From the NCBI GenBank assembly GCA_016281925.1, contig JAEEJP010000061.1, positions 1-45,451 on the forward strand: a DNA stretch of 45,451 bases, written 5' to 3'. Under the pieces are notes generated by a model that saw nothing but the letters and a program-made list of their open reading frames with translations, was not told the origin of the DNA and did not search any database. The translations under genes and the position numbers were made by a program. Positions within the stretch are counted from its first letter, which is position 1. Every line of letters begins with the position of its first letter. This DNA comes from Methanomassiliicoccaceae archaeon. Its GTDB lineage: Archaea; Thermoplasmatota; Thermoplasmata; Methanomassiliicoccales; Methanomethylophilaceae. Shown here in pieces: positions 2,782-39,133 of this stretch.

Positions 2782-5700
2782 TCAGATACCCATCTGAGGA
2801 TAGCTGACTTTGTATTCGGTTCCGGTGTAGGAGATGGCCCCGTCCTTGTTTACGTCAAGGCTGACCACATTGTAGCTGTCGAACCATTCCTGGAGGTCTG
2901 CGAGAGCGTCTTCCAATGTGAACTCGTCGGGATAGATCTGCGCGGCGATGACCTTCATCAGAGGGTAGGCGGAATAGCCGAAGGTGTTCGGATACTCGCT
3001 TCCGACTATGTTGCCGTTCTTGTATGCGCCGGTCTTCTCGAAGTAGGAGACGGCGGTCTCGAAGGCTTTGTTGTAGGTTTCGTGCGTATAATATGTGCCG
3101 GTGGACTGGTCATCGGCATATCCGGAGTTCCCTGACATGCAGAAGACGATATAATCGAACTTGCTGCTGTTGGCGACGAGCCACTCCACGTTATGGTAGA
3201 CGAACCCGAACTGGTTGGTTCCGTCCTCGTAGTAGCAGTTTCCGAGGTACTTATTTATGAGCACATAGCTTCCGTGCCTCTCGTTGGCCAGGATCGAGAT
3301 CTGGTCTTTCGCGGCATCATACCCGCTGATGACGAGAATTCTCTTGTCCTTATTGGCATCGCCGATCTTGGATTTGAGCTCGTCTCCGATGCCGTTGCAG
3401 TAGTCCATATAAGCTCTGGATTTGTCTTCCTTGTCCATCAGGATGCCCATGGTCTGGATGGTCGAAAGGCAGTAGTTCCCGTTGTACCAGAGCTGTATGA
3501 AATCGATGTTCTGCTCGCTGTGGAGGCGCACCGCGAGATCGTGGTTCTCGGTCCTGGGCGTGCAGACCACGAGAGAAACATCGTTTGCGATGAATTTCTC
3601 CACCGCATCATCGGTTATGGCGCTGGAGCCGGTCGTCCCCCATTCCACGGTGTCTCCGTCGGAGAGGGTAGGCCACATGGTCCCGTAAACGGTGGCAGCC
3701 TTCGACGCGACCTTGATATCGTCCAGAACCCCGAGTATGGCGCAGGCTTCGGCCTGCTGGTAGTAGGTTACGGCGATGTTCCTGTTGGTCAGCGGGAAGT
3801 TGACCGGGGTGGCGTCGCCGTAATAGTCCTGGTAGAAGACCTCGCAGGGCGTCCTGCTGATTATGTTGCGCACTATCCCGACATCCTTCGAGTCGATGGC
3901 GCCGTCGAGGTTCGCGTCTGCGAAGGGCATGTTGGTGCTGTCGTATTTGGTGGTGCCGGCGATGATGGAATTCAGCATGCTGACATCGGTGCTGTCTATG
4001 AACAGATCGTTGTTCGCGTTCCCGTATATGGGCACATACGTTCCGATGCCTCCGAGAGTGACATCGTCATAGCTGACGGTGTTGAGCTTAGGATAGCTGG
4101 TCTGGTAGGCGCTGCCGGTGTATGAGACCGCGCCCTGCGTGGTCACATCTATGTCGACGACGTTGTAATTGTCGAACCATTCCTGGAGAAGATCTCTGGC
4201 GTCGTCGATCGATATGAGATCGGGATAGACCTGTGCGGCGATCAGAGGAAGGATGGCGTATGCGGAATACCCGAATATGTTCGGATATGAGCTTCCGACG
4301 ATGTTTCCGTTTTTGTATGCCTTCACTTTGGTGAAAGGCTCAATCTGACTCTCGAAATCGGCGTTGTAGGCTTCCTGGGTGTAATATGTTCCTGTCGTCT
4401 GATCGTCGGCATATCCGGAAATCCCTGACTTGGCGAACAGGATGTAATCGAATTTGTCGCTGTTGGCGACGAGCCATTCGAGATTGTGGCTGACGAATCC
4501 GAACTGGTTGGTTCCGTCCTCGTAATATGCGTTCCCGAGATATCTGTCGACGAGCACATAGCTTCCGTGCCTCTCGTTGGCCATCAGCTCGAGCTTGTCG
4601 GAATCCACATAATACTTGTCCATGACCAAGAAGTTCTTGGAAGTCGTATCGGTGATTTTGCTGGTGAGAAGATCGGACACCTTGTTGCAGTAGTCCATGT
4701 AAGCTCTGGATTTGTCTTCCTTGTCCATCAGGATGCCCATGGTCTGGATGGTCGAAAGGCAATAGTTCCCGTTGTACCACAGCTGTATGAAATCGATGTT
4801 GCGTTCGCTGTGGAGACGCACAGCGAGATCATGGTTCTCGGTCCTGGGCGTGCAGACCACGAGAGAAACATCGTTTGCGATGAATTTCTCCACCGCATCA
4901 TCGGTGATGGCGCTGGAGCCGGTCGTCCCCCATTCCACGGTGTCTCCGTCGGAGAGGGTAGGCCACATGGTCCCGTAAACGGTGGCAGCCTTCGACGCGA
5001 CTTTGACGTCATCCAGTACGCCGAGTACGGCGCAGGCTTCGGCCTGCTGGTAGTATGTTACGGCGATGTTCCTGTTGGTCAGCGGGAAGTTGACCGGAGT
5101 GGCGTCGCCGTAATAGTCCTGGTAGAAGACCTCGCAGGGCGTCCTGCTGATTATGTTGCGCACTATCCCGACATCCTTCGAGTCGATGGCGCCGTCAAGG
5201 TTCGCGTCTGCGAAAGGCATTTTGGCCGCGTCATATTTGGTGGTTCCGGCGATGATGGAACTGATCATCTCGACATCGGTGCCATCTACGTACAGGTCGT
5301 TGTTCGCGTTCCCGTATATCGGCACATAAGTCCCTATGTCGCCGAGAACGACGCCGCTGTAGTCTTTGTTGACTGTGACGTTGCATGTCGCGGTTTTTGC
5401 CCCGTCGACAGTCGTGACGGTTATGACGGCAGTCCCTTCAGAAACGCCGGTTACAGTTCCGTTAAAAACCGTAGCTACAGATGTATTGCTGGATTTCCAA
5501 GTGACGTTCTTATTGGTGGCATTGGATGGCAAAACATTGGCTGTCAGCGATGATGAAGAACCTTTCGCAATTACCATTGTGGATTTGTCAAGTTCTACGC
5601 CGGTTACAGCGACCGTCGTAGTCGGAGTGCTGACGGTGACATTGCATGTCGCAGTCTTACCTCCGTCGCTCGTAGTCACAGTTATGGTCGCGCTGCCTGC

Positions 5701-5976
5701 TGAAACAGCTTTGACAACGCCGTCGGATACCGTGGCTACAGATGTGTTGCTGGATTTCCAAGTGACTTTCTTATTGGTGGCGTCAGACGGGGAAACAGTC
5801 GGCGTGAGCGTCGCTTCTGAGCCCGTATCCAAAGCAAGGGAGGTCTTGTCAAGCGAAACCCCTGTGACTTTGATATCTTTGCTTCCGTTTCCAGAAGTAA
5901 GCACCACCGCTGCCGCAATAGCCGCTACAGCGACTATCAGGACAGCAACGATAGCTATGATCTTGTTTTTTTCCAT
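2782..5976 (-). CDS. Secreted/membrane-anchored protein: N-terminal TM, two Big_2 domains, tandem [dockerin-like + periplasmic-binding-protein-like] units
   Basis: 1064 aa. N-terminal hydrophobic helix. Two Ig-like repeats (VTGVSLDKTSLAL...ATCNVTV and VTGVELDKSTMVI...ATCNVTV). Two dockerin-like EF-loop pairs (GNANNDLYVDGTDV...ADANLDGAIDSKDVGIVRNII). Two SBP-like domains. Upstream of permease/ATPase on the same strand. Confidence 0.9.
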   Translation of the reverse strand: MEKNKIIAIVAVLIVAVAAIAAAVVLTSGNGSKDIKVTGVSLDKTSLALDTGSEATLTPTVSPSDATNKKVTWKSSNTSVATVSDGVVKAVSAGSATITVTTSDGGKTATCNVTVSTPTTTVAVTGVELDKSTMVIAKGSSSSLTANVLPSNATNKNVTWKSSNTSVATVFNGTVTGVSEGTAVITVTTVDGAKTATCNVTVNKDYSGVVLGDIGTYVPIYGNANNDLYVDGTDVEMISSIIAGTTKYDAAKMPFADANLDGAIDSKDVGIVRNIISRTPCEVFYQDYYGDATPVNFPLTNRNIAVTYYQQAEACAVLGVLDDVKVASKAATVYGTMWPTLSDGDTVEWGTTGSSAITDDAVEKFIANDVSLVVCTPRTENHDLAVRLHSERNIDFIQLWYNGNYCLSTIQTMGILMDKEDKSRAYMDYCNKVSDLLTSKITDTTSKNFLVMDKYYVDSDKLELMANERHGSYVLVDRYLGNAYYEDGTNQFGFVSHNLEWLVANSDKFDYILFAKSGISGYADDQTTGTYYTQEAYNADFESQIEPFTKVKAYKNGNIVGSSYPNIFGYSAYAILPLIAAQVYPDLISIDDARDLLQEWFDNYNVVDIDVTTQGAVSYTGSAYQTSYPKLNTVSYDDVTLGGIGTYVPIYGNANNDLFIDSTDVSMLNSIIAGTTKYDSTNMPFADANLDGAIDSKDVGIVRNIISRTPCEVFYQDYYGDATPVNFPLTNRNIAVTYYQQAEACAILGVLDDIKVASKAATVYGTMWPTLSDGDTVEWGTTGSSAITDDAVEKFIANDVSLVVCTPRTENHDLAVRLHSEQNIDFIQLWYNGNYCLSTIQTMGILMDKEDKSRAYMDYCNGIGDELKSKIGDANKDKRILVISGYDAAKDQISILANERHGSYVLINKYLGNCYYEDGTNQFGFVYHNVEWLVANSSKFDYIVFCMSGNSGYADDQSTGTYYTHETYNKAFETAVSYFEKTGAYKNGNIVGSEYPNTFGYSAYPLMKVIAAQIYPDEFTLEDALADLQEWFDSYNVVSLDVNKDGAISYTGTEYKVSYPQMGI
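2790..4070 (-). repeat. Intragenic tandem duplication, unit 2 (dockerin + SBP)
   Basis: Same protein string as 4085..5360 at an offset of about 1290 nt; near-identical core around 3395-3935 vs 4685-5225. Confidence 0.85.
4085..5360 (-). repeat. Intragenic tandem duplication, unit 1 (dockerin + SBP)
   Basis: See unit 2; for example tttgtcttccttgtccatcaggatgcccatggtctggatggtcgaaaggc occurs at 3421 and 4711. Confidence 0.85.
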
Positions 5977-8426: not shown

Positions 8427-9266
8427 ATGGCAGTCCTGGATATCGACGGCGTTAGCTTCTCGCACGGATCCAAGAAAATCCTGGACGGGCTTGCTTTCAA
8501 AGCGAGAAAAGGGGAAGTCGTGGGGATTCTGGGGCAGAACGGATCTGGAAAGACCACGCTTCTAAACTGCATCAACGCAGAATACAGACCGCAGAAAGGC
8601 GCGGTCAGGCTGCTGAACTTCTCCGAAGAGTCTATGGATCCCAGCCATCGCAAATGCGGTTCGATCGATGTCAGGGAACTGTCCGAACACGAGAGATCGA
8701 GGGTCATGGCCACTGTGGAGCAGAACTCCCACATGAATTTCCCGTTCTCCGTGATGGAGGTCGTCAGGATGGGCAGGTATTCCCGCGCGGGGATGCTGGA
8801 CGAGAACACCGATGCTGAGATGGACATCGTATGCTCCGCCATGGAATCCACCGGCGTGCTGGGATTCAGCGACCGCGACGTCAGCGAGCTTTCCGGAGGG
8901 GAATGGAGGAGGGTCATGATCGCCCAGGCGCTTGCCCAGGAGCCGGAGGTCCTTCTTCTGGACGAACCGACGCTCCATCTGGACATCAACCACCAGTTCG
9001 ACCTCATGGACCTGTGCCGCACCATAGTCTCCGAGAGGGATATCCTGATAATCATCGTGACGCACGACCTGCAGCTGGCCGCCAGATACTGCGACCGCAT
9101 TATAGTGATGCAGAACGGCAGGATCGTGTCCATGGGCACTGCCGAGGAAGTGATCACGGCAGAAATGATACGCGAAGTCTTCGGAATGAAGGCCCGTGTC
9201 GGATACGACGAGGAGATCGGAGGCATGTCGGTATTCCTGATCGGACGCGACAGGGGCGGGACATGA
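8427..9266 (+). CDS. FecE/BtuD-type ABC transporter ATP-binding protein
   Basis: 279 aa with GQNGSGKTTLL, LSGGEWRRVMIAQAL and VLLLDEPTLHLD. Confidence 0.93.
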   Translation: MAVLDIDGVSFSHGSKKILDGLAFKARKGEVVGILGQNGSGKTTLLNCINAEYRPQKGAVRLLNFSEESMDPSHRKCGSIDVRELSEHERSRVMATVEQNSHMNFPFSVMEVVRMGRYSRAGMLDENTDAEMDIVCSAMESTGVLGFSDRDVSELSGGEWRRVMIAQALAQEPEVLLLDEPTLHLDINHQFDLMDLCRTIVSERDILIIIVTHDLQLAARYCDRIIVMQNGRIVSMGTAEEVITAEMIREVFGMKARVGYDEEIGGMSVFLIGRDRGGT

Positions 9267-10435
9267 CCGGGGACATAGTGAGGCGTTCGGTGGACGCTTG
9301 GATGGACGAGAGCGAAGAGTTCGAAGAAGAGATTTCGGACTTCAGAAAGGGGACGCTCCGCAGGCTGGCATTCATTGCCGCATGCATAGCCGCTGCGTTC
9401 ATTGCCGCCGGGATCGGAATGAACATCGGCGACTACCGCATCGATTTCTTCGAGACATACAGGGTCGTTTGGGCCCACCTCACTGGGAATGTCTATGACG
9501 AGACGGCCGACTGGATAATGTTCCAGTGGAGGCTGCCCCGCATCTGCTGCGACGTTCTGGCGGGAGTCGGGCTCGCGGCCGCCGGTGCCGTCATGCAGAG
9601 CATACTCCGCAACCCTCTGGCCGATCCCTATACCACCGGGATATCGTCGGGGGCCGCGTTCGGAGCGACTGTAGCGATGGCTTTGGGGCTGTCGCTGACC
9701 GCATCCGGGTTTGCGGTGGTAGCCAATGCCTTCTTCTTCGCTCTGATACCCACGGCCGTCATTCTTGCCGTCTCCAAGCTCAGATCGGCATCCCCGGCCA
9801 CGATGATCATGACCGGCATCGCCATAATGTACATGTTCAACGCGACGTCGACGCTGATACGCCTCTATGCGGACCCGGACACGCAGGCAGCAATATTCGC
9901 CTGGACCGTCGGCACCACCGACATCCGCGAATGGAGCCATGTGCTCATGATGACGGCGTTCGTCATAGCCGGGACCTTTGCATGCCAGCTGATGGCCCGC
10001 AGGCTCAATGTCATAGCGGCCGGCGACGAATCCGCGCGCTCGATCGGAGTAAACGCCGAGCGCCTCAGAGTCATCGCTCTGCTGGTGGTTTCGCTTCTGG
10101 CCGCCGGCATCGTGAGCTTCACCGGCCTGATAGGTTTCGTCGGATTGGTGTGCCCCCATATCGCCCGCCTCATCGTAGGATCGGACAGCCGCTATCTGAT
10201 CCCCGCATCCGCCGCGTTCGGAGCCCTCCTTCTGCTGGCGGCGGACATCATCGGCCATGTCGTGGTATACGGGCATTCCATCCAGGTCGGAGTCATAACT
10301 GCGTTCCTCGGGGCGCCGATACTCCTGTACCTCATAATCAAACAAGGGAAGGAGGTATGGCGATGGAACCCGTCATCGAAGTCGAAGGGATGTCGTGCGG
10401 GTACAGGGGACGCCCGAACGTGCTCGAAAGCATAG
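9263..10435 (+). CDS. FecCD/BtuC-type ABC transporter permease
   Basis: MTGDIVRRSVDAWMDESEEFEEE..., close paralog of the 1563..2687 permease. ATGA overlap with the upstream ATPase stop. C-terminus runs 79 nt into the next ATPase and ends in TAG. Confidence 0.9.
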   Translation: MTGDIVRRSVDAWMDESEEFEEEISDFRKGTLRRLAFIAACIAAAFIAAGIGMNIGDYRIDFFETYRVVWAHLTGNVYDETADWIMFQWRLPRICCDVLAGVGLAAAGAVMQSILRNPLADPYTTGISSGAAFGATVAMALGLSLTASGFAVVANAFFFALIPTAVILAVSKLRSASPATMIMTGIAIMYMFNATSTLIRLYADPDTQAAIFAWTVGTTDIREWSHVLMMTAFVIAGTFACQLMARRLNVIAAGDESARSIGVNAERLRVIALLVVSLLAAGIVSFTGLIGFVGLVCPHIARLIVGSDSRYLIPASAAFGALLLLAADIIGHVVVYGHSIQVGVITAFLGAPILLYLIIKQGKEVWRWNPSSKSKGCRAGTGDARTCSKA

Positions 10436-11190
10436 ATCTGGCTCTGGACGGCCCGGGGCTGACATGCATAATCGGCCCTAACGGAGTGGGCAAATCAACC
10501 TTGGTGAAATGCCTGACGGGAAGCGTGAAGCCGTCCGCGGGAGAAGTCAGGATACTCGGCAGGAAAGTATCCGAATACAGGCTGAAAGACCTGGCAAAGA
10601 TCGTCGGATACGTTCCGGTGACATCTTCGGACATGAACAGGCTCACCGTCGTGGAGACCGTCCTTGTGGGCCGCTTCGCGCATCAGAGCCGCCGCACCGC
10701 TTCCAAAGACCTCCAAGCCACATATCGCGCCCTGAGAGCGATGGAGATAGAGGATCTGGCCGGCAGGGAATTCAGCGAGCTGTCTGCAGGCCAGCACCAG
10801 AAGGTCGCCATAGCCAGGGGTCTGGTCCAGCAGACGCGCATACTCATTCTGGACGAGCCGACCTCGAATCTGGACGTCAGGCACCAGGTTTACGTTACAT
10901 CATTCCTCAAAGAGCTCTCGCACAGGACGGGCATGACCGTCGTGATGATAAGCCACGACCTCAACCTGGCCGCGAAATTCGCCGATGTGGTTGTGCTCAT
11001 GGAAAAACCGGGGAGGATCCATTCGGTCGGCGCCCCGAAGGACGTCATCGTGCCGGATGCGATAAGGGACGTGTATGGCGTCGACTGCGACGTCGTGGAC
11101 GACCAGGGGTCCCCGCATGTGATGCTTCATGACGTGCTGCGACGGAGCTTGGGAAAGGATGTCGCCATCTCCGTCGGGCATGGCGCCTGA
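10357..11190 (+). CDS. FecE/BtuD-type ABC transporter ATP-binding protein
   Basis: MAMEPVIEVEGMSCGYRGRPNVLESI...; GPNGVGKSTLVKC; LSAGQHQKVAIARGL; ILILDEPTSNLD. Close paralog of the 793..1578 ATPase. Confidence 0.93.
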   Translation: MAMEPVIEVEGMSCGYRGRPNVLESIDLALDGPGLTCIIGPNGVGKSTLVKCLTGSVKPSAGEVRILGRKVSEYRLKDLAKIVGYVPVTSSDMNRLTVVETVLVGRFAHQSRRTASKDLQATYRALRAMEIEDLAGREFSELSAGQHQKVAIARGLVQQTRILILDEPTSNLDVRHQVYVTSFLKELSHRTGMTVVMISHDLNLAAKFADVVVLMEKPGRIHSVGAPKDVIVPDAIRDVYGVDCDVVDDQGSPHVMLHDVLRRSLGKDVAISVGHGA

Positions 11191-11587: not shown

Positions 11588-11884
11588 TCACTCTATCTTC
11601 AGAAGGCCGGAGAAGTTGGTCATATCCAGCACGGCTTTGACCTCCTTGTTGACGTTCACCAGCTTTATCCCGTTCTTTTCCTCCATGAGCTCGTCCGCAT
11701 TCAGCAGAGACCTGAGCCCGGCAGACGAGATGTACGAAACGTGGGTCATGTCGAACACGAGCGAAGCCGCGGATGCGGATTCCCTCTCCACGACTTCGTC
11801 CAGCTCGGGCGCGGTAACATAGTCGATGTTCCCTTTGGGCGATATGGTCGTCACTCCGTCTTTCTTCTCTATCCCTATTTCCAT
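11588..11884 (-). CDS. STAS-domain anti-sigma-factor-antagonist-like protein (RsbV/SpoIIAA type)
   Basis: MEIGIEKKDGVTTISPKGNIDYVTAPELDEVV...VFDMTHVSYISSAGLRSLLNADELM; conserved phosphoacceptor-type SSAGLR motif. Confidence 0.9.
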   Translation of the reverse strand: MEIGIEKKDGVTTISPKGNIDYVTAPELDEVVERESASAASLVFDMTHVSYISSAGLRSLLNADELMEEKNGIKLVNVNKEVKAVLDMTNFSGLLKIE

Positions 11885-11889
11885 GAGAA

Positions 11890-13704
11890 TCACATCTCCT
11901 TCTCCAACTTCAATATATTGCGGCCATCCTCGCGGGAATAGGATACTTCGTCGCATATCTTCTTCACGAGCATTATCCCCAATCCTCCGCGCCGGCGCTC
12001 CTTGAAACTGTTTATCGGATCGGGGTCCTTGCGCGCCAGCGGATTGAACGGCACACCCCAATCCGTGAATGTGACGCGGACGGCGCCGTTGACCACGTCG
12101 GTTGTCACCAGGACGTCCCCTTTCTCCTCCCTGCCGGCATAGGCATACATGTCTATGTTGGCGAATATCTCGGAGCATGCGGTCTCCATCTCGGTCACCG
12201 TACGCGGGGAGCACCCGGCATCGGCCATCCTCTGCCTGATGCGCTCCATCACCTGCGCATAACCCTGCCTGTCGGCGCGGACCTTTATCCCTTCGTCCGG
12301 CCGGATGTCATATGGGCGGATGTATGTTAGGCCCAGCATGGTCATGTCGTCGCTCTGCCTGGCGCTCCCGACGAATTCCGCCACGTCCGACCTCACCTTC
12401 TCCAGAACTCTGTCCGGGGATTCGCCGGCTACGGAGGAAAGGGATCCCAGAAGGCGCTCCTCCCCGAACGTGCCCCCGTCGGTTCTCGCGGCCTCCGTGA
12501 CGCCGTCGGTATAAAGGAAGATGCCGTCCCCGATGTCCAGGTGGAAATACTGCCTGTTATAGCTTATCCTCTTCTTCCTCCCGAAGACGAAGTCGGGCTG
12601 GCACTTAAGCATCTCGTATTTCCCGCCTTTGCATATGAAAGGAGGGTTGTGGCCGGCGTTGACGAAGCAGACGTCCCCGGTCCTGAGGTCTATGACCCCG
12701 ATCCAGACGGTGACGAAGTATTTCATGGAATTCGTCGCGGAAAGCTCCCGGTTGGCTTTCTCCATCGCCTTGTCCAGATCCCCGCCCGCCTGCACGTTGG
12801 ACCTTATCAGGGTCATCGAAGTGGCCATGAACAGCGACGCGGGAAGGCCTTTCCCGGAAACGTCGGCCACAACTATGGCAAGGCGGTCGTCACCTACCGT
12901 GAAGCAGTCGTAGAAGTCTCCCCCCACATCCATCGCGGCCGACATCGACGAGGACACGTCGCAGTAGGGCTTGCAGGGGAAATCCGTGATGAGGAGGCCC
13001 TGCTGTATCCCCCTGGCATTGGACATCTCCTTCTCGACCCCGATTTTCTCTTTCCTCAGGTCGGACTGCTTTCTGATGTCGTCGATTCCGATCTTGACGG
13101 CATAATAAGAGGGTATGCAGACCAGAAGATAGATGAGGAGATCGACGATGTAGTACACCCGTATCAGAGAAATCGCCCTGTCAAATCTTGTCATTCCCTG
13201 GTACATCCCGATCATGAGGGGCGACAGGTAGTCGTTTATCAGGAGCCCTGCGAGCATCAGGACGGCGCCGATGACTATGGTTGCTTTGATGAAATTGTTG
13301 CGGTAATATATGCCGCATGATATCACAGGGAGCAGCATCAGAATCATCATCGAGTAGTCCACGGCAGCTATTATGATGAATGAATTGAACATTATCGATC
13401 CGATCAGGACGAATTTGGTCCACCACCGGCTCCCTATGAAAAAGCAGCCCGCAGCGCTGAGCGCCATGACGGTCAGAGAAGCATAGACCATATCCAGGGA
13501 CCCTTCTATGTCGCGGATCTTGGCTTCGCCGAGGTATATCCAGGCTATGTTCATGATGATGACCGCGATTATTATGGTCTCGACTATCCTGTCGGCGCGG
13601 CGGTCCCTGTATTGGACGATCTCGTCCAGGACGTCGTTGGCAGGGCGCTTTCTGAACATGAAGAAGGTATGCCGCCCCTCCGCCCCATCCTTGGTGCCTG
13701 CCAT
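11890..13704 (-). CDS. Multi-TM SpoIIE/RsbU-type PP2C phosphatase fused to a C-terminal RsbW-like HATPase
   Basis: Hydrophobic N-terminal half; MDVGGDFYDCF, VADVSGKGLPASLFMA, LYTDGVTEA, DDMTMLGL (PP2C); then ACSEIFANIDMYAY, FTDWGVPFNP, GGLGIMLVKKICDEV (HATPase). Alternative start MFRKRPANDV at 13659. Confidence 0.9.
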   Translation of the reverse strand: MAGTKDGAEGRHTFFMFRKRPANDVLDEIVQYRDRRADRIVETIIIAVIIMNIAWIYLGEAKIRDIEGSLDMVYASLTVMALSAAGCFFIGSRWWTKFVLIGSIMFNSFIIIAAVDYSMMILMLLPVISCGIYYRNNFIKATIVIGAVLMLAGLLINDYLSPLMIGMYQGMTRFDRAISLIRVYYIVDLLIYLLVCIPSYYAVKIGIDDIRKQSDLRKEKIGVEKEMSNARGIQQGLLITDFPCKPYCDVSSSMSAAMDVGGDFYDCFTVGDDRLAIVVADVSGKGLPASLFMATSMTLIRSNVQAGGDLDKAMEKANRELSATNSMKYFVTVWIGVIDLRTGDVCFVNAGHNPPFICKGGKYEMLKCQPDFVFGRKKRISYNRQYFHLDIGDGIFLYTDGVTEAARTDGGTFGEERLLGSLSSVAGESPDRVLEKVRSDVAEFVGSARQSDDMTMLGLTYIRPYDIRPDEGIKVRADRQGYAQVMERIRQRMADAGCSPRTVTEMETACSEIFANIDMYAYAGREEKGDVLVTTDVVNGAVRVTFTDWGVPFNPLARKDPDPINSFKERRRGGLGIMLVKKICDEVSYSREDGRNILKLEKEM

Positions 13705-14435
13705 ATCTCATCCCCCTGCGGATACGGCTCCGATATCTCCGTGATTCGATAAATAGGACGGCATCGGATCAGCCCGGATAGGTCGACGGCTCTCAGAGAA
13801 GGCTCGAACCCTTCCCCCGCGGAGCATACGGCGCAGCGATATCCGTCGCGCGGATCGTATTCCTTGAAGCGGTACTCCCGGGAATCGACTTTCTGATCCA
13901 CGCGTATCGGGTCCCCCAGATCTATGCGGAAGGAATCCAGCGGCAGGGACATCCCCAGCCCAGTGGCTTTCATGAAGCTCTCCTTCAGGGTCCAGTAGCG
14001 GCAGAACAGGGCAGGCATATCTCCGGTGCCCTCCGCGGCCGCTATGTCTTCGTATTCCGAGCCGTGGAAGAACCTCCCGGCGATGTCCAGGCCGGCATAC
14101 TTCACCATCTCCACGTCGCAGCCCACATCGGAATCGGATACGGCGCACGCCACGCGCTCCTCCGAGTGGGACATGTTGAATCTGACCCGGGAATCCCTCA
14201 GGAACGGCTTCCCGTTCTTTCCGGTTCCGATCTCGGCGGAATCCGGGTTCTCCCCCAGATCCTCCAATGCTTCGCGGAGGAGGGCCCATACGCCTACGCA
14301 GAGGCGTCTGTCCTTGCCGAAAAGGAACCTGTCCGCTTTCCTCCTGCGGCATTCCGGCATCCGGCTGTACAAAGCGGAATATACCGATGGATCCTCCAGA
14401 GCATAGGTCTCCGAATAGTACGTCCTGACCTTCAT
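13584..14435 (-). CDS. Sfp-type 4'-phosphopantetheinyl transferase
   Basis: GKNGKPFLRDSRVRFNMSHSEERVACAVSDSDVGCDVE and FCRYWTLKESFMKATGLGMSLPLDSF, the hallmark Sfp motifs. C-terminus overlaps the phosphatase gene. Confidence 0.93.
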   Translation of the reverse strand: MKVRTYYSETYALEDPSVYSALYSRMPECRRRKADRFLFGKDRRLCVGVWALLREALEDLGENPDSAEIGTGKNGKPFLRDSRVRFNMSHSEERVACAVSDSDVGCDVEMVKYAGLDIAGRFFHGSEYEDIAAAEGTGDMPALFCRYWTLKESFMKATGLGMSLPLDSFRIDLGDPIRVDQKVDSREYRFKEYDPRDGYRCAVCSAGEGFEPSLRAVDLSGLIRCRPIYRITEISEPYPQGDEIWQAPRMGRRGGIPSSCSESALPTTSWTRSSNTGTAAPTG

Positions 14436-14505
14436 GCCGCCTCCTGCCGCCGTTTCCGTCCGGTTCCGGGCGGCAAGGCAGGGGATGGCCTGACCTGCCC
14501 CGGCT

Positions 14506-15610
14506 TCATCTGAAGAACCTCAGTGATTTCAGCGTCTTGAACGCCTTGTCGATGTATCCGTCGGAGATTATGGGCCACGAGAATCCCAGCCTGTACAGCG
14601 CTTTCACGGTGTACGCGTCGTCCGCCGCGACGAACCTGCGGGTCTCTCCTGCGTTGCCCAGATAGCTTATCAGGCCGGATACGAACTCTTCGTTGGCCTC
14701 GTCCTTCATGGCTTCCGTGAACCTCCTGTCGAACTCCTTCCTGGAAACCACTTCCACCGGCATGCCGTTGTCCCTCATGACCTTCAAGACGTTCGCCATG
14801 TGCACCTTGTGGCAGTTGTTGACATGGAACGCGGTGAACTGTTCCGGGGTGCCGGCCAGGATTACGACGGCCTTGGCGACCATGTCGATGGGCGAGAATT
14901 CCACTTCCGTGTCCATGTCTGTGACCGGGAAGAATCCCAGCTTCACATAGGACCTCATCTGCTTCATGAAAGCGTTGGTGCCGAAATTGATCTGGAACTC
15001 CCCGTCGCTGTCGCGGCTCATGAGGTTCCCGACGCGGATGATCTTCGCCTTCAGGCCTCCCGGGATCGCCTTTATTATCTCCTCCTCGGCCATGAACTTG
15101 GAGCGGGCGTACTTGTTGTCCAGGTTCTGCCCGAAGTCGAGCTCGCTCTCCTTCAGCTTCCTGTCGGCGGGTATGCTTCCGTTGACGGATTCCCCGGCGA
15201 CGCTCTCAGTGGATATCTGGACAAGCAAGGATCCGGTGCTCTCGGCCAGGCCGATCAGATTCCTGACCCCGCCCACGTTCACCTTTTCGATGGAGTCGTC
15301 GGCCGCGAAGTGCTTGACCACCGCCGCGCAGTTTATGATCGTGTCGAAACTGCGCCCCTCCAGCTTCTCCTTGAGGTTCTTGTCCGTGATGTCCCCGTCT
15401 ATCACTTCCACGCTCTTCAGCGGATCGTCGGGAGCCATCCCTCCGAAGTAATACATGAAAACAGTCTTCAGCCTCTCCTCGGATGTCTGGCCCTTGCCGC
15501 TCCTCACCAGACAGGCCACATGCTTGGCGTTCCTCCTGAGGAGCTCCCAGAGCACGTGGGCGCCCAGATATCCGGTCGCCCCTGTCAGCAGGATCCTGCG
15601 GGGGCTGTGC
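14506..15610 (-). other. NRPS terminal NAD(P)-dependent thioester reductase domain
   Basis: RILLTGATGYLGAHVLWELLRRNAKHVACLVRSGKGQTSEERL... with DNKYARSKFMAEE, the extended-SDR Y-x-x-x-K pattern (YARSK). Confidence 0.88.
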
Positions 15611-18600
15611 GAGCTTATGGAGTCCAGGCTGCCTTCGACGTTGGCCGCCAGCGGACTCTCGTCGATCGCCGCCCTCTTCTCCTCCTCCCCGGCCTTTCCG
15701 AGGGTGCCCATGAATCTGGCCAGGGCTTCCGGGGAGGGGTTGTCGAAGACGTTCTTGTAGACTATTGGGAACCCGGCGTTCATGCAGCTAAGCACCAGCT
15801 TCGATGCCGAGATGGATGTCCCGCCGATCTCGAAGAAATCGTCGTCCGCGTAGACCTTCTTCAGGCCGAGGACGCCGGCAAATATCTCGCACAGCTTGGT
15901 CTCCGTCGGACCCGAAGGCTCCCTGCCGGCCTTCCTGGGCTCGGAAGACGGCTCCGGGAGCTTCCTCCTGTCCACCTTCCCGTTGACCGTCATGGGGATG
16001 GAATCCAGCTGGACGAAGTGGGCGGGGACCATGTACGGAGGCTTGGAGCTTCTGATGAAATCGGCCAGGCCTCTGAAATCCACCTGCGAATCCGAGACTA
16101 CGTAAGCTGTGATCGACTTCCCTCCGGCAGGGTCGTCGAATGCCTTCACGGTGGCGTCTTTTATGCCCGGATATCCGCGCACCGCGCCTTCCACCTCGGC
16201 CAGCTCTATCCTGAACCCGCGCACCTTGACCATCCCGTCGCGGCGCCCTATATAATCGATGTTCCCGTCCGGGAGCATGCGGACCACATCCCCGGTCCTG
16301 TAAAGGCGGCCGAAGCCCGGCCCGTCGGAGAACGGACTTCTGGTGACGGTCTTGGCGGTCTTCTCCGGATTGTTGAGGTATTCCCTGAAAACCTGCGGGC
16401 CGCTTATGCAGAGCTCGCCGCAGCATCCCACCGGGACGATCCTGTCGCTCCTGTCCAGGACATACAGCTTGACATTGGTGTTCGGCCTGCCTATCGGGAG
16501 CAGCGGGCTGTCGTCCCTGACTTTGAATGTGGTCACGTTGACCGTGCATTCCGTAGGCCCGTAGATGTTGTAGAAATCGACCCAGCCGGGCGGGTTCAGC
16601 GGCACCAGCCTCTCCCCTCCCGCCATGAAGGCTTTCAGAGACCTGCATTGGGTGGCCTCCATGAACATCCTTCCCATCTGGGTGGTCATGAAGCCGTGGG
16701 TGATCCCGCTGCTGATGAAGTACCTGTCGATCTCAGCGAGATCCTTGCGCATCTCCTCCGGGATGATGTGGACTGCGGCTCCTGCGGAGAGGGAGGAATG
16801 GATGTCCATCATGCACGCGTCGAACCCGTAGCTCGCATACGATGCGTATCTGGACGTGCTGGGGTGGCCGACCTCCGGGATCATCCATTTGAGGAAGCTG
16901 ACGATGTTCCTGTGCTCCAGGACGCATCCCTTGGGGGTCCCGGTGGTCCCTGAAGTATACAGGATTATGAATGCGTCCTCCGGGGACGGGGCCAGAGAGG
17001 CCACGTCGGGGCGCCGGCCGGAGCACAGGCCGTCGATCTCGTCGGTATACAGGACATCGCCGCCGTAGCCGGAGACCAGCCCGCGGAGGGACCTGTCGGC
17101 TATCAGGAGCCTGGTCCCGGAATCCTGCATCATGAACAGGAGGCGCTCCTCAGGATAGGTCGGATCCAGAGGCTGATACGCGGCCCCGGATTTTATCACG
17201 CCTTCTGCTGCTATTACCATGAATAAAGACCTGGGCACCAGAACTGCGACGTACTCGTCCTTCCCGATGCCTTTGGAATGGATGTAGTCGGCGATGTAAT
17301 CGGTCTTCTCGTCCAGCTCCCCGTAGGTCAGGCTGTCGCCCATATAGACGGCGGCGATATTGCCCGGGCGCTCCCTGGCATTCCTTCTGAACATGTCCAC
17401 AACCGTGGCGGACATGTCGAACGGGACGGCGGTATCGTTCATCCTGGCGACCGCCTCCAAGGTCTTCCCTTCCGTCAGGTCGACCTCCCTCAGCATCGTG
17501 CAGGCCGGGAACTCCGAGACGGCCCTGTCGAACGACTTGGCGAAGAACTCCATGAACTCCGGGGTGAATCTGTTCCTGTCGAATTCCACCATATACGCCA
17601 GCTCGTCGCCGTCCATGGCCACCTGGAACAGTATCGGCTCCTTCTCTCCGGACAGGCTCACCTGGACCGATTCGGAGGGCTTCCCGCAGAATCTGTCGAA
17701 CCTGAACCCGTCTCCCTGGTAGACGAACATCACGTCGGCTTTGACCTCGAGTTCGCGGCTGATCTCCGCGAAAGAATAGATGTCGTTGGCCATGCTGTCC
17801 AGAATCTGGTCCCCTATCCTCTCCGACAGGCGCAGAGGCGACATGGAATCGTCGGACACGTCGCAGAGAACAGGGAGGGTCTTGACGTACATCGACACCG
17901 ATCCCATCGTTCTGGAATCGCTCCTTCCGTTGTAGATCGTGGCGAATATGGAGTGCTCGCTGCCGCTGTATCTGGCCAGGACGTATCCGAAAGCCGCGCA
18001 GAGCAGGCCGTTCATGGTGATCCCGGCCCTCTCGCAGCGCTCGGCCAGCTTCCTCCCCAGACCTCCGCCGCTCTTCATCATCAGTGTGCCGGCGGCGCCG
18101 GGATCCGGACGGTATCTGTCGCCTCTGGGCAGGGAATCCCTGTCGTACCCGGCCAGCAGGTCTTCATAATACTTCTTGGCGGCGGCGAGGGCCTCCGGCG
18201 TCCTCTCATCGGCCTCTTTCAGCGAAGCTTCGAATCCGCTGAACCTCTCCGGCTCAGGCTTCTCCCCGGAATAAGCCTTGGAGATGTCGTCCAAGAGGAC
18301 CTTCATGGAAGTTCCGTCGCTGATTATATGGTGCATCTCGACGAACAGATGATCCCCGCCGGCATGGACGAGCTTTATGCGGAACAGCCTCGAGCCTATG
18401 AGCCGGAACGGCTGGGCCAGACCGGGCAGGACCGCATCCAGGGAGTCCGCCGAGATCTCCTCTATCTCGTCCGGGAAGAATGTCGGCAGGCCTTTCCTGA
18501 CCAGGCGGATGTCCCCGGAATCATTTGCTGCCAGCGTGGCCATCATGAACGGGTGGGCGTTGACCGCATCGGCGATGGCGGCCTTCAGCCTGTCCCCGTC

Positions 18601-21600
18601 CAAGGAGCTGTCATATCTGATGAGCAGAGGTATGTTGTAGATGGTGCTGTCCGGCCTGGCCATGCATTCCACGAACACGCCCTCCTGGGATTTGGTGAGC
18701 GGATAATCGTCCTGGATCTCGTACGTCCTGGCCGGGGCGGAGCTCTCGATTAGCTTCTCCAGCTTGGCGACGGTGCTGTTCTCCTTGATGTCCTTGGATC
18801 TGAACGGGATCCCGAACTCGTCCGAGAGCAGAACGTTGAAACGGATTCCGCTGATGGAAGTCAGCCCCGCCCGGAACAGATCGGTGTCGATCCCGAACCT
18901 GTCGGTTCCCAGGACCTCCGAGGCTATCCTGAATATGCGCTTCTGGATGTCGGTCTGCGGAGGCGAGACCTCGCCCATATCGATGGACGGGACGGGCAGC
19001 TTCCTCCTGTCCACCTTGCTGTTGACGGTCAGCGGTATGCTGTCCAGCTGCATGATCACGGCCGGGACCATATACGGGGGCTTTGTCTGCAGGATGAAGC
19101 TCTCCAAAGCCCTGACGTCCACCTTGCCGTCGGAAACGACGTAGGCCGCTATCTGCTTGCCTCCCGAGGGGGCGTCGAACGCCTGGACGGTCGCGTCTCT
19201 GATCCCTTCGAATGCGCGTATGGCCCTCTCCACCTCGGTGAGCTCGATCCTGAATCCGCGCACCTTGACCATGCCGTCGCGGCGCCCTATGTAATCCACG
19301 TTTCCGTCGGGGAGAAGGCGCACGATGTCCCCGGTCCTGTACATCCTGTCATGCTCGGGGCAGTCGGAGTAAGGGTTGTCCACCAGCACGGCGGCGGTCT
19401 TCTCCGGGTTGTTCAGATAACCTCTGAAAACCTGCGGGCCGCTTATGCACAGCTCCCCGCAGGCGCCGGTCGGGACGATCCTGCGGTCCCCGTCCAGCAC
19501 GTAAACCCTCACGTTCGTGTTGGGCTTCCCAATGGGCAGAAGCGGGCTGTCGTCTTTCACCAGGAACGAAGTCACGCTCACGGTGGTCTCGGTGGGTCCG
19601 TAGAGGTTGTAGAAGTCCAGCCATTCCGGCGGTTTCAGGGGGACCAGGGCCTCCCCTCCGGTGAAGAAATGCTTCAGAGTCCTGCATCCTGCGGTCTCCA
19701 TGAACATCCGCCCCATCTGGGTGGTCATGAACCCGTGGGTGATCCCGTTCTCCGAGAAGAACCTGTCCAGAGCGCCCAGATCGCTGCGTATCCCGTCCGG
19801 TATGACCGCTATGCATGCGCCGCGGGAAAGGGATACCATGACGTCCATCATGCAGGCATCGAATCCGAAGCTGGCGTAGGTCGCATATCTGGATCCTGGG
19901 CCCAGCTCCGCCTTCTTGCCGTACCAGTCTGCGAATGCCGCTATGTTCCCGTTCTCCAGGACGCAGCCTTTGGGCGTTCCGGTGGTCCCCGACGTGTAAA
20001 GGATTACGAAAGCGTCTTCCGGCGAGGGGGACAGGGCGCTCGCATCGGGCGCTCTCCCTGCGAATCTGCTCCCGAATTCGTCGGTATAGAGGATTTCGCA
20101 TTCGTATCCGCGTACCAGGCCGGCCAGCGATCTGTCCGCTATCATCAGCCTGACCCCCGAATCGCGCATCATGAACAGCAGACGCTCCTCCGGATATGTC
20201 GGGTCCAGAGGCTGGTATGCCGCGCCGGATTTCACCACTCCGAGCGCTGCGACAACCATAGCGGCGGATCTCGGCACCAGGATGGATACGAACTGGTCTT
20301 TCCCGATCCCCTTCGAAGAGATGTATGAGGCTATGTGGTCGGTGATCCGGTCCAGTTCGGAATATGACACTATAGTCTTATCAAACAGCACCGCATCATC
20401 GTCCGGGCGCTCCGCGGCTCTGGCTCTGAACATGTCGACTATAGTCTTACTTCTGTCATATTCGCTGTCGGTCGAATTCACTTCCCTGAGCAGGGCGGCA
20501 TCTTCTTCCCCGGACACCTCCACGTCCCTGAGCGTCGGAGCGCCGACGAATCCCAAGGCGCATCTTCCGAATGTCGCCAGGAAACTCCTCATGAGCCCTT
20601 CGGAATACATGGATGCGTCGTATTCGAGGTCCGCGAGGAACCCGTCCTTCATCGGATACACCTGGACCGTCAGAGAGTTCTTGATGTCCCTGATCTCCAT
20701 CTGGGAATCCAGTACGCTCTCGTCATCCAGGATGCCCTGGTATGCGAACAGCACGTCTGAAGTCACGCCGAAGCGGGCGCTGATCTCGGAGAACGGGAAT
20801 ATATCGTTCTGCATCGAGGATACCAGCTGATCGCCGGTGCGCCTGACCAATGCTCCGGGGCTCTCGTCCGGATCGAACCTCTGCACGACCGGAAGGGTCC
20901 TGACCAGCATCCCTACGAGGCGCGAGGTCCTGCCGCCTTTCCTCCCGGCATATACGGTCGCATGGCAGGAATCGTCTGTGCAGTTGAATCTCGAGAGCGC
21001 AAATCCCATCGCGGATTGGAAGAACGCGTTCTCCGTCGCCCCGGCCGACTCCGCGAACGCCTTCAGCTTCCCGGGGTCGAGATCCAGCTTCGCTCTGAGA
21101 TGCCCCTTCACCCTGGCCTCGCCGTAGACATCCCTCTGTATGACGGATGTGCCGTCCGCATCGGACAGCAGCTCAGAATAGTATTTCTCGGAACGGCTAT
21201 AGTCTCCCGAAGACATGCGCCCGGATTCCTCGTCCGAGAGATCGAACATGGTGAAAGTCTCGGCGGCAGGTTCCCTCCCGGAAAGGGCGGCCCTCAGATC
21301 GTCCATGAAGATGAGGCTGGACGAGCCGTCGAACATTATGTGGCTGAAATCCATGAGAAGCGTCTCCGCATCCCCTGTATCGAAGATCGCGGCTCTGTAC
21401 AGCCCTTCGGACATGTCGAACGGCCTGACGAACGATCCGCGGTATTCTTCCAGATCCGATTCTGAGCCTTCGATGCGCTCTATCCTGACCTCCGCGTCAG
21501 GGTGCGGGACCATGCACATCTCGCCTCTGCCGTCCGGCTCTATGGTGCACTTCAGCCCCGGGTGCGCCTCTATAGCTTTCCTGACGGCGCCTTCCAGATC

Positions 21601-23430
21601 CCTGCCGGCCAGCTGCTCCTTGGCGAACCTGGCCTGCATCGGAAGGTTGTACATCACGGTCTCCGGATCGGCGTAGCACGCCTGGTATACCCCCATCTGC
21701 GGCTTCGTAAGAGGATATCTGTCTCTGAGGGCCTTCTTTTCCGCGGGAGCGGAAACGGCCTTCTCAACGAGCTTGGCTATTATCTCACCGGAAACGGAAG
21801 CTATGGAGCATCCCCCGAGCATCGAAGACACGTCCAGATCCACACCGAACCTTCCCATGGCCTCGGAAGCGAACTTGATGGCAGTCAGGGAGCTCAGCCC
21901 GCAATACACGAGATTCTCGTCGAAGCGGAAATCGTCCCTTCCCGTGAGCTCCTTCAGTATCTCCCTCACGCCTTTGGTGACGGCGTTCTCCTCGAAATCG
22001 GTGGGCCCGGCCGTCACCGCCGACCCGCTGCCGGGCGCGGTGGGATCCGGAAGGGAATGCCTGTCGATCTTCCCGCTTTGGTTCAGCGGGAGCCTGTCCA
22101 TACGGACGAGATACGCAGGCACCATGTATCCGGGCAGCTTGCTCCTGAGGAAGTCGCGGACCGAATCCTCCCGGATATCCCCCGATGCGGCATAGTATGC
22201 GCACAGGAACGTCTGGCCGTCGGTCCCTTTGAAATCTTTGACGGCGGCCTGGATGATCCCGGGCATCGTCATCATGACCCCAGAGATCTCCCCAGGCTCG
22301 ACGCGCTGGCCGTTTATGTTGACCATCCAGTCGTTGCGCTCCAGATAAAGCAGGCTGCCGTCCTCCAGGCGCCTTCCTATATCCCCGGTGCGGATCATGA
22401 TGTCATATCCGTCGCGGTCCCTGAACGGATTGGCGACGAACGCCTTCGCCGTGGCTTCCGGGAGGTTCAGATATCCGTCAGAGAAATGCCCGGTGAAGCA
22501 TATCTCCCCCTCCTCCGCCTCTCTGCCGTTCCCGTCCAGGACATAGGCGCAGACCCCTTTGAGCGGCTTTCCCAGCGGAGTCCTGTCGTAAGCTCTGTCC
22601 AGAAAGAAGCCGGTCGCCATGCCGCATGTCTCTGACGACCCGTATAGGTTGACTATAGTGAAATCGTCCGACCAGACCTTGACCGCGCGCTCCCCTCCGA
22701 TGAAGACCATGCGGAGGGTCTTCGTTTTCTGGCGATAATAAGGGAGCATCGCGGGCGCCATGAACATTATGGTGATCCCATGGTCGGAATTGAATTCGGA
22801 GAGCTTGTTCAGGTTTATGCGGACGTCGGCGGGGACGATGTAATCGGGGCATCCGCAAGCCAGAAGAGCGATGTTATTGGCGGTGCCCACTACGAACGTG
22901 AAAGCGGAGAGATTCGCGAATCTGTCCGTATCCCTGACCTCTACGAGATCGCTGACCCTGTCGACCATGGCGGAGACCGAGCGATGGGAATGGATGACCC
23001 CTTTGGGCTTCCCGGTGGATCCAGATGTGTAGACGATGAATGCCTTGTCTTCGGGACGGAGATCTTCCGGATCGCAGTCCAGCGTCTCGGGGCCCATCTT
23101 CTCCAGAAATTCGGGCGTCACGCGGACCTTCGCCTTGCAATCGCCTGCGATATAGTCCTTCCTGTCTTTCGGATAGCCGCTGTCGGAAGGGACGAAGAAT
23201 CCCCCCAGCATCCAAGCTCCCAGCATGAATCCGACATATTCCTTGCATCTCGGAAGCTCTATGGTGACTCCGTCCCCTCTGCGGAGCCCTTCCTTCTTCA
23301 GGGCGGCGGCCGCGCGGTATGAGAAATCGCAAAGCTCTTCGTATGTGAAGGCCCCTTTGTCAGTCCATATGGCTGTCTTTCCCGGCGTAGACTCCGCCCT
23401 GTCCAAAATCATCTCGAGTATCTTCCGCAT
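14506..23430 (-). CDS. Three-module non-ribosomal peptide synthetase, A-PCP-C-A-PCP-C-A-PCP-thioester reductase
   Basis: About 2974 aa from MRKILEMILDRAEST. Three adenylation cores (YTSGSTGKPKG, YTSGTTGTPKG x2), three PCP sites (CGLSSL, AGLTSIS, IGGTSIS), two condensation domains (SHIMFDG, HHIISDG) and a terminal Rossmann reductase (ILLTGATGYLGAHVLWELL). Confidence 0.95.
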   Translation of the reverse strand: MRKILEMILDRAESTPGKTAIWTDKGAFTYEELCDFSYRAAAALKKEGLRRGDGVTIELPRCKEYVGFMLGAWMLGGFFVPSDSGYPKDRKDYIAGDCKAKVRVTPEFLEKMGPETLDCDPEDLRPEDKAFIVYTSGSTGKPKGVIHSHRSVSAMVDRVSDLVEVRDTDRFANLSAFTFVVGTANNIALLACGCPDYIVPADVRINLNKLSEFNSDHGITIMFMAPAMLPYYRQKTKTLRMVFIGGERAVKVWSDDFTIVNLYGSSETCGMATGFFLDRAYDRTPLGKPLKGVCAYVLDGNGREAEEGEICFTGHFSDGYLNLPEATAKAFVANPFRDRDGYDIMIRTGDIGRRLEDGSLLYLERNDWMVNINGQRVEPGEISGVMMTMPGIIQAAVKDFKGTDGQTFLCAYYAASGDIREDSVRDFLRSKLPGYMVPAYLVRMDRLPLNQSGKIDRHSLPDPTAPGSGSAVTAGPTDFEENAVTKGVREILKELTGRDDFRFDENLVYCGLSSLTAIKFASEAMGRFGVDLDVSSMLGGCSIASVSGEIIAKLVEKAVSAPAEKKALRDRYPLTKPQMGVYQACYADPETVMYNLPMQARFAKEQLAGRDLEGAVRKAIEAHPGLKCTIEPDGRGEMCMVPHPDAEVRIERIEGSESDLEEYRGSFVRPFDMSEGLYRAAIFDTGDAETLLMDFSHIMFDGSSSLIFMDDLRAALSGREPAAETFTMFDLSDEESGRMSSGDYSRSEKYYSELLSDADGTSVIQRDVYGEARVKGHLRAKLDLDPGKLKAFAESAGATENAFFQSAMGFALSRFNCTDDSCHATVYAGRKGGRTSRLVGMLVRTLPVVQRFDPDESPGALVRRTGDQLVSSMQNDIFPFSEISARFGVTSDVLFAYQGILDDESVLDSQMEIRDIKNSLTVQVYPMKDGFLADLEYDASMYSEGLMRSFLATFGRCALGFVGAPTLRDVEVSGEEDAALLREVNSTDSEYDRSKTIVDMFRARAAERPDDDAVLFDKTIVSYSELDRITDHIASYISSKGIGKDQFVSILVPRSAAMVVAALGVVKSGAAYQPLDPTYPEERLLFMMRDSGVRLMIADRSLAGLVRGYECEILYTDEFGSRFAGRAPDASALSPSPEDAFVILYTSGTTGTPKGCVLENGNIAAFADWYGKKAELGPGSRYATYASFGFDACMMDVMVSLSRGACIAVIPDGIRSDLGALDRFFSENGITHGFMTTQMGRMFMETAGCRTLKHFFTGGEALVPLKPPEWLDFYNLYGPTETTVSVTSFLVKDDSPLLPIGKPNTNVRVYVLDGDRRIVPTGACGELCISGPQVFRGYLNNPEKTAAVLVDNPYSDCPEHDRMYRTGDIVRLLPDGNVDYIGRRDGMVKVRGFRIELTEVERAIRAFEGIRDATVQAFDAPSGGKQIAAYVVSDGKVDVRALESFILQTKPPYMVPAVIMQLDSIPLTVNSKVDRRKLPVPSIDMGEVSPPQTDIQKRIFRIASEVLGTDRFGIDTDLFRAGLTSISGIRFNVLLSDEFGIPFRSKDIKENSTVAKLEKLIESSAPARTYEIQDDYPLTKSQEGVFVECMARPDSTIYNIPLLIRYDSSLDGDRLKAAIADAVNAHPFMMATLAANDSGDIRLVRKGLPTFFPDEIEEISADSLDAVLPGLAQPFRLIGSRLFRIKLVHAGGDHLFVEMHHIISDGTSMKVLLDDISKAYSGEKPEPERFSGFEASLKEADERTPEALAAAKKYYEDLLAGYDRDSLPRGDRYRPDPGAAGTLMMKSGGGLGRKLAERCERAGITMNGLLCAAFGYVLARYSGSEHSIFATIYNGRSDSRTMGSVSMYVKTLPVLCDVSDDSMSPLRLSERIGDQILDSMANDIYSFAEISRELEVKADVMFVYQGDGFRFDRFCGKPSESVQVSLSGEKEPILFQVAMDGDELAYMVEFDRNRFTPEFMEFFAKSFDRAVSEFPACTMLREVDLTEGKTLEAVARMNDTAVPFDMSATVVDMFRRNARERPGNIAAVYMGDSLTYGELDEKTDYIADYIHSKGIGKDEYVAVLVPRSLFMVIAAEGVIKSGAAYQPLDPTYPEERLLFMMQDSGTRLLIADRSLRGLVSGYGGDVLYTDEIDGLCSGRRPDVASLAPSPEDAFIILYTSGTTGTPKGCVLEHRNIVSFLKWMIPEVGHPSTSRYASYASYGFDACMMDIHSSLSAGAAVHIIPEEMRKDLAEIDRYFISSGITHGFMTTQMGRMFMEATQCRSLKAFMAGGERLVPLNPPGWVDFYNIYGPTECTVNVTTFKVRDDSPLLPIGRPNTNVKLYVLDRSDRIVPVGCCGELCISGPQVFREYLNNPEKTAKTVTRSPFSDGPGFGRLYRTGDVVRMLPDGNIDYIGRRDGMVKVRGFRIELAEVEGAVRGYPGIKDATVKAFDDPAGGKSITAYVVSDSQVDFRGLADFIRSSKPPYMVPAHFVQLDSIPMTVNGKVDRRKLPEPSSEPRKAGREPSGPTETKLCEIFAGVLGLKKVYADDDFFEIGGTSISASKLVLSCMNAGFPIVYKNVFDNPSPEALARFMGTLGKAGEEEKRAAIDESPLAANVEGSLDSISSHSPRRILLTGATGYLGAHVLWELLRRNAKHVACLVRSGKGQTSEERLKTVFMYYFGGMAPDDPLKSVEVIDGDITDKNLKEKLEGRSFDTIINCAAVVKHFAADDSIEKVNVGGVRNLIGLAESTGSLLVQISTESVAGESVNGSIPADRKLKESELDFGQNLDNKYARSKFMAEEEIIKAIPGGLKAKIIRVGNLMSRDSDGEFQINFGTNAFMKQMRSYVKLGFFPVTDMDTEVEFSPIDMVAKAVVILAGTPEQFTAFHVNNCHKVHMANVLKVMRDNGMPVEVVSRKEFDRRFTEAMKDEANEEFVSGLISYLGNAGETRRFVAADDAYTVKALYRLGFSWPIISDGYIDKAFKTLKSLRFFR
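15803..15835 (-). other. NRPS PCP3 phosphopantetheine attachment motif (FFEIGGTSISA)
   Basis: Canonical F-F-x-x-G-G-T-S motif following adenylation domain 3. Confidence 0.85.
18852..18880 (-). other. NRPS PCP2 phosphopantetheine attachment motif (FRAGLTSIS)
   Basis: Minus-strand translation RAGLTSIS following adenylation domain 2. Confidence 0.75.
21882..21903 (-). other. NRPS PCP1 phosphopantetheine attachment motif (CGLSSLTA)
   Basis: Minus-strand translation CGLSSLTA following adenylation domain 1. Confidence 0.8.
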
Positions 23431-38360: not shown

Positions 38361-39133
38361 GCCTGCATCCTTTCGAAGGAGAAGGCTTCGACCGCGGCCG
38401 CGCGCTGAAGTTCTGGGACGACATAGCCTTGGATTATGAGGGATGCGCCATGCAGGGCGCCATCCCCGGAAAAATAGTGCAGAGGCTGTGCGATATGGAG
38501 GTGCTAGGGCCCGACACAGATGCCATAGAGTTCGGATGCGGTCCCGGAACCTATTCCGTCCCCATGTCGGAGAGGGTCCGCTCCCTCACCTGCGTCGACG
38601 CCTCCGAGAAGATGCTTTCCATCCTTTCGGACTAGATTCCAGAGGGAAGCATAGATCTGAGGCTCGGGGATTTCATGCTCTTCGATCCTGGGCGGAAGTA
38701 TGATGCGGCGATCATGTCCCTGTGCCCCGGGACAGGCTCGGCGGAAGGCATCCTCCGCGCCAACGGATATTCCCGCGGATGGTGTGCCCACATAATGTGG
38801 ATCGAGAATTCCTGGGACAACCTCGTCTCCGGCGTGTGGAAAGCACTGGGCAAAGACTATTCATACGAAGGCCGCAGGAACGGTCTGCTGGAATCCAATC
38901 TCGATTCCCTCGGCCTGGATTATTCGAGGGAAGTCTTCGAGGACGATGTTTCCTGGGAGATGCCTTTCGAAGACATCGTGGCCAGGGAGACCCGCATATT
39001 CGAAGCATACGGCATCCAGAATGCAGAAAAGGCCGTCAGAGAAGTGCTCATGCCTTATTCCGACGGCGACGATTTCTCGTTCAGATGCAGGAACTCCATG
39101 AAACTGGTCGTCTGGAGGGCAGAACGATGCTGA
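38357..39133 (+). CDS. Class I SAM-dependent methyltransferase with one in-frame TAG (38633-38635)
   Basis: MSLHPFEGEGFDRGRALKFWDDIA...DAIEFGCGPGTYSVPMSERVRSLTCVDASEKMLSILSD[TAG]IPEGSIDLRLGDFMLFDPGRKYDAAIMSLCPGTGSAEG...WRAERC. Both halves are in the same frame. ATGA overlap with the upstream permease; ends just after the next ATPase start. Confidence 0.85.

Follow-up and report, generated by a model that had tools for sequence, protein, structure and literature searches.

A contig of 45,451 nucleotides from a Methanomassiliicoccaceae archaeon (GenBank assembly GCA_016281925.1, contig JAEEJP010000061.1), referred to here in its entirety as the window, encodes a nonribosomal peptide synthetase (NRPS) together with an Sfp-type phosphopantetheinyl transferase (PPTase), a membrane-bound SpoIIE-type phosphatase fused to an RsbW-like kinase, and a STAS protein. 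Comparisons with related archaeal loci suggest, at somewhat better than even confidence, that these genes form a biosynthetic operon with its own phosphorylation switch, the output of which would be the STAS protein; that this protein gates production directly is a guess. The host genome comprises 1.96 Mb in 122 contigs and is 86% complete, and the window is one of these contigs.

Organization of the locus

All four co-oriented minus-strand genes named in a preliminary description of positions 11588-23430, which was made from the sequence alone, were confirmed (Table 1). The NRPS and PPTase genes are separated by about 70 bases and the fusion and STAS genes by 5 bases. The PPTase frame of the window runs on until it overlaps the start of the fusion gene, whereas close homologues end at 223-237 amino acids (aa), and the extension may reflect a lost stop codon or a sequence error.

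Table 1. Coordinates of the genes and domains of the NRPS locus within the window
Feature	Position	Strand	Remarks
NRPS, A1-T1-C1-A2-T2-C2-A3-T3-R	14506..23430	-	Likely start MRKILEMILDRAEST at 23430, matching 2974-aa relatives; Pfam/NCBIfam domains and motifs
A1, loading adenylation domain (probable)	22039..23397	-	V instead of Asp235
C1, condensation domain	20548..21723	-	Motif SHIMFDG
A2, adenylation domain	18979..20418	-	Ten-residue code DAMFFGLVSK
C2, condensation domain	17509..18711	-	Motif HHIISDG
A3, adenylation domain	15943..17379	-	Code DAMFMGIVNK, nearly invariant among relatives
R, terminal thioester reductase	14509..15627	-	Motifs TGATGYLG and YARSK
Sfp-type PPTase	13584..14435	-	ATG at 14435; PF01648, 4.7e-16; conserved part ends at ~13770, frame continues into fusion gene
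Membrane PP2C (SpoIIE) phosphatase fused to RsbW-like HATPase kinase	11890..13704	-	Alternative start 13659
RsbV/SpoIIAA-like STAS protein	11588..11884	-	Phosphoacceptor Ser54 in YISSAGLR; PF01740, 3e-15

Conservation of the gene order

Condensation domains occur in 19 and SpoIIE domains in 29 of 100 genomes sampled from the family. Wherever the contig reaches far enough, the NRPS, SpoIIE/HATPase, and STAS genes lie on the same strand and close together, as seen in 13 of 13 archaeal loci (the window, L061-L069, L074, L086, and L217; L070, cut inside the fusion gene, and L072, cut before it, were left out). The NRPSs of these relatives take two forms, an A-first form with three adenylation domains, as in the window, and a C-first form with two, and the space between NRPS and fusion gene is sometimes occupied by a PPTase gene or one small gene. 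The NRPS stop and fusion gene start overlap by 4 bases in L065 and L074, as do the fusion and STAS genes in L062, L063, L064, L068, and L069, and these overlaps suggest co-transcription. Distances between reductase domains correlate with those between PP2C domains (r 0.80), a value reached in none of 5000 permutations. Among 293 genomes sampled across the phylum, four yielded the reductase, every one from the genus of the window; the family sample adds two further genera. The possibility raised at the outset that the order might be confined to this contig is answered by 12 further genomes that share it, one of them assembled as a single contig; because the order recurs in 13 genomes, the locus is not an assembly artefact, and a chimeric assembly is ruled out.

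NRPS architecture and predicted product

Pfam searches of the NRPS identified three AMP-binding, two Condensation, and three PP-binding domains with a terminal NAD_binding_4 reductase, and the carrier serines are present besides the condensation and reductase motifs. The preliminary description had recognized the NRPS and counted three modules but overlooked the C-terminal thioester reductase. The order is A-T-C-A-T-C-A-T-R (A, adenylation; T, carrier; C, condensation; R, reductase), and the count stands except that the first A domain (A1) lacks Asp235 and probably serves for loading rather than as part of an ordinary amino-acid module. Asp235, which binds the alpha-amine, is missing from A1 in all seven A-first NRPSs and kept by their later A domains, the sole exception being A2 of L061. 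Its loss suggests that A1 probably loads a carboxylic acid or a beta-amino acid rather than an alpha-amino acid. The codes of the A domains look like those for hydrophobic residues. Given a loading-type A1 and a terminal reductase, the likely product would be an N-capped dipeptide aldehyde, or a cyclised or reduced form thereof.

With A, T, and C domains that carry active-site motifs and a terminal NAD_binding_4 domain, the NRPS has the make-up of the reductase-release type. Dipeptide aldehydes are known from gut bacteria (PMC12327764), and the NRPS AusA likewise frees its dipeptide by reductase release (PMC12153313). AusA is also the closest NCBIfam match, yet at 1565.8 bits the score falls below the equivalog cut-off of 2500 bits, so the enzyme is AusA-like rather than an AusA orthologue.

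The locus has its own Sfp-type PPTase, as previously described, and this is the only one found in the host genome. Every NRPS genome has one such enzyme, including G083 and also G036, which carries another NRPS, and none was found in eight genomes without an NRPS. This distribution ties the PPTase to NRPS use, and the enzyme would be expected to prime the NRPS.

The phosphatase/kinase fusion and the adjacent STAS protein

Domain searches upheld the earlier assignment of the fusion protein as a SpoIIE phosphatase (PF07228, 7.5e-45) joined to an RsbW-like ATPase (PF13581, HATPase_c_2, 7.2e-20), and of its neighbor as a STAS protein with the phosphoacceptor-type motif SSAGLR. The metal-binding PP2C aspartates D248, D266, D385, and D438 and the kinase N-box residues E497 and N501 are invariant in 11 fusion homologues, and the STAS serine, also invariant among homologues, aligns with the phosphoacceptor Ser58 of SpoIIAA. 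The predicted structure of the fusion (mean predicted local distance difference test score, pLDDT, 82; predicted template modelling score, pTM, 0.53) consists of a helical membrane part, a long linking helix, a PP2C domain, and a HATPase domain, and among solved structures it is matched best by the RsbU-RsbW portion of Rv1364c, SpoIIE, RssB, and SiaA. The components of an RsbU-RsbW-RsbV module are thus present, namely a PP2C domain with catalytic aspartates, a kinase with its glutamate and asparagine, and a STAS protein with an acceptor serine. The membrane part is the most divergent among relatives (mean distance 0.71), compared with 0.30 for STAS and 0.27 for the reductase, the two least divergent; divergence of the sensor alongside conservation of STAS suggests that the input varies while the output stays constant.

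One relative deviates from an intact reading frame: in genome G123, the phosphatase/kinase frame (L217:6344-8086) is broken by a single TAG within the PP2C domain. The group of methanogens to which G123 belongs reads TAG as pyrrolysine (PMC4824259).

A putative switch without a sigma factor

The module lacks the usual endpoint of such systems. Archaea are not known to have the sigma factors that bacterial-type switches of this kind usually control, and the preliminary description had said as much; no Sigma70_r2 domain (PF04542) was found in 10 archaeal genomes, that of the host among them and eight of them near-complete, while a bacterial control has six. In seven of the nine NRPS genomes, the HATPase_c_2 protein and the STAS protein encoded at the NRPS are the only ones of their kind; the other two genomes, the near-identical G026 and G043, carry an additional set next to an NHLP-type exporter. 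The switch therefore looks closed and dedicated, with no recognisable partner beyond its own parts. Since sigma factors were not found and further HATPase or STAS partners are usually missing, the STAS protein would be the output itself rather than an anti-anti-sigma factor, and that output must differ from the textbook one.

Genomes G043 (C1:777040-790788) and G026 (C3) also contain giant NRPS frames of 5225 aa, with TGA reported inside the last matches, similar to a pyrrolysine-containing NRPS reported in ISO4-G1 (PMC4824259). No link between the switch and the giant NRPSs (frames of 5225 and 5768 aa) was seen.

Bacterial relatives and origin

Related fusion or phosphatase proteins were collected from 80 bacterial loci, mostly of gut and rumen Clostridia; two of the loci have Condensation domains nearby. 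A single bacterial order, represented by 394 genomes, yielded four close reductase NRPSs: in L212 the NRPS is followed in a row by STAS and fusion genes, L216 has a MATE-HATPase gene and an NRPS with a divergent STAS gene plus a fusion gene, and L213 and L214 have only a PPTase in the stretches read. In a quick tree with some long branches, the NRPS-linked fusion proteins of archaea group in a single clade (SH-like approximate likelihood ratio test, SH-aLRT, 99), and the bacterial NRPS-linked proteins are not its sisters but fall elsewhere, leaving common descent of the two as one unit unsupported. Transfer from bacteria is plausible, and the operon probably has a bacterial origin.

Several other clusters contain related switch proteins. 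In L084 (7571-16405), as in L080, L082, L083, and L218, a SpoIIE phosphatase, mostly HATPase-fused, and usually a STAS protein accompany a HATPase protein, LuxE, a LuxC/PaaK-like enzyme, and a MATE-HATPase, making this a second aldehyde-type cluster under a like switch. Archaeal NHLP-type bacteriocin exporter pairs are followed directly by STAS and SpoIIE/HATPase genes in L081 (1600-8153) and L088. Next to SpoIIE/HATPase genes of gut Clostridia, a STAS domain is joined to an APH-type phosphotransferase (L099:11210-12388 and L112:7960-9105), and in a Blautia locus (L140:5315-7321), near STAS and SpoIIE/HATPase genes, the C-terminal part of an AMP-binding enzyme weakly matches HATPase_c_2 (1e-4, below the cut-off).

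Other features of the window

The remainder of the window holds four FecCD/BtuCD-type importer sets and a ZnuABC-like set (importer regions 796-2756, 8831-11190, 37272-40005, and 42865-45446), and a 1064-aa protein (2782-5976) with Big_2, dockerin, and weak periplasmic-binding domains. The many FecCD/BtuCD importers gave rise to the idea of a siderophore function, which was dropped as importers do not recur beside the NRPSs of relatives. An Rfam search of the window returned no matches.

Proposed role of the switch

In the proposed mechanism, a signal perceived at or within the membrane would set the balance of kinase and phosphatase activities on Ser54 of the STAS protein, which would then act as the downstream output, much as the single-chain kinase and phosphatase SypE of Vibrio fischeri controls the downstream component SypA (PMC10120452). 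The dephosphorylated form might turn production on by binding to the NRPS, to the PPTase, or to an export step. This last step is a guess prompted by like domains that are fused elsewhere to metabolic machinery, namely MATE-HATPase proteins (L084, L085, and L216), STAS-APH proteins (L099 and L112), and the weakly matching AMP-binding enzyme. The narrower proposal, that a sigma-free archaeal STAS protein directly gates the assembly line of the NRPS, or the step in which the PPTase activates it, giving protein-level on/off control by serine phosphorylation, is the favoured guess but less likely than not.

Three observations weigh against a dedicated switch of the NRPS. The PPTase gene does not keep a fixed position, and that of G083 is found on a different contig. 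The same phosphatase/kinase and STAS cassette also stands beside NHLP exporters and LuxE/LuxC clusters, which marks it as generic rather than NRPS-specific. Finally, the absence of other HATPase and STAS proteins rests on Pfam searches of genomes that are partly incomplete.

A possible but rather unlikely alternative is that the STAS protein controls transcription through an archaeal regulator (TFB, TBP, or a MarR/Lrp-type protein) rather than the assembly line. Canonical relatives do end in transcription control, and the STAS proteins RbaV and HmpV alter gene expression through downstream targets not yet known (PMC10120452), but the archaeal genomes searched have no sigma factor, most have no second HATPase to serve as a transcription-factor partner, and no gene family recurs beside the loci except those described. 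It is improbable that the membrane protein instead senses the peptide product or its target, making the switch a means of self-protection or quorum-like feedback rather than an on/off control of synthesis: the membrane region diverges fastest, as expected of a sensor tracking a varying ligand, yet fast divergence is common for membrane domains, and no resistance, efflux, or target gene recurs at the archaeal loci. That a generic gut-bacterial cassette landed by the NRPS and travels along without functional connection is very unlikely. The cassette is indeed frequent in gut Clostridia, mostly without an NRPS close by, and the NRPS-linked copies of bacteria do not group as sisters of those in archaea, but in archaea the genes are linked in 13 of 13 loci, overlap tightly, diverge in a correlated way, and are mostly single-copy.

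An operon with its own STAS-ending switch would offer a clean case of a bacterial-type kinase/phosphatase-STAS system retained without a sigma factor and usually without any other partner domain. The locus is compact and in most genomes present once, which brings the target of a STAS protein working without sigma factors within reach of direct tests. A further prediction is that capped peptide aldehydes, known as protease inhibitors from gut Clostridia, are made by some gut methanogens as well.

Comparison with known systems

The sensor of Rv1364c from Mycobacterium tuberculosis is a PAS domain, and an RsbV-like domain lies within the same chain. This protein (PDB 3ke6) is the best solved match to the fusion in both sequence and fold and likewise joins phosphatase and kinase in one chain, but it is bacterial and has no NRPS linkage. 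SypE and SypA of V. fischeri (PMC10120452) agree with the locus in combining a serine kinase and a PP2C phosphatase in one protein and in having no known sigma target; SypA is a single-domain STAS protein that acts downstream, the place proposed here for the STAS protein of the locus. The domain make-up of the fusion fits this comparison, but SypE has a different domain order and a receiver domain, which was not found in the fusion, and controls biofilm, whereas the fusion is NRPS-linked.

AusA/AusB of Staphylococcus aureus and the gut dipeptide-aldehyde NRPSs (PMC12153313, PMC12327764) resemble the locus in pairing a reductase-release NRPS with a dedicated PPTase. AusA has the order A-T-C-A-T-R, and PMC12153313 describes no phosphorylation switch at ausAB.

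Contrary to the preliminary description, NRPSs are not rare among rumen methanogens, as a rumen survey counted 687 NRPS clusters in 125 archaeal genomes; within the near-complete genome set of that survey, they were found in Methanobrevibacter only (PMC8241843). The closest precedent is Methanobrevibacter ruminantium M1 (mru0068; mru0512-0516), compared here from the paper only, whose NRPS is likewise flanked by serine phosphatases and an anti-sigma factor antagonist, and for which a role in sensing and NRPS regulation was already suggested (Leahy et al. 2010, PMC2812497). The supplementary legend shows a thioester reductase domain, a further likeness, and a separate cluster contains a PPTase, a phosphatase, an antagonist, and an RsbW-type kinase (PMC2812497). 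The same cassette also occurs beside NRPSs in gut Firmicutes; with this and the 2010 report, the association of NRPS and switch is not new as such. M. ruminantium belongs to another methanogen order and has a C-first NRPS and a MatE exporter, with the PPTase and a stand-alone kinase gene placed in a different cluster, whereas the present locus has an A-first NRPS, one fused kinase/phosphatase, and no exporter, all in a single run of genes. What is new here is the second lineage, the compact fused form, its strict conservation, the lack of any further partner or sigma factor, and the unusual loading domain.

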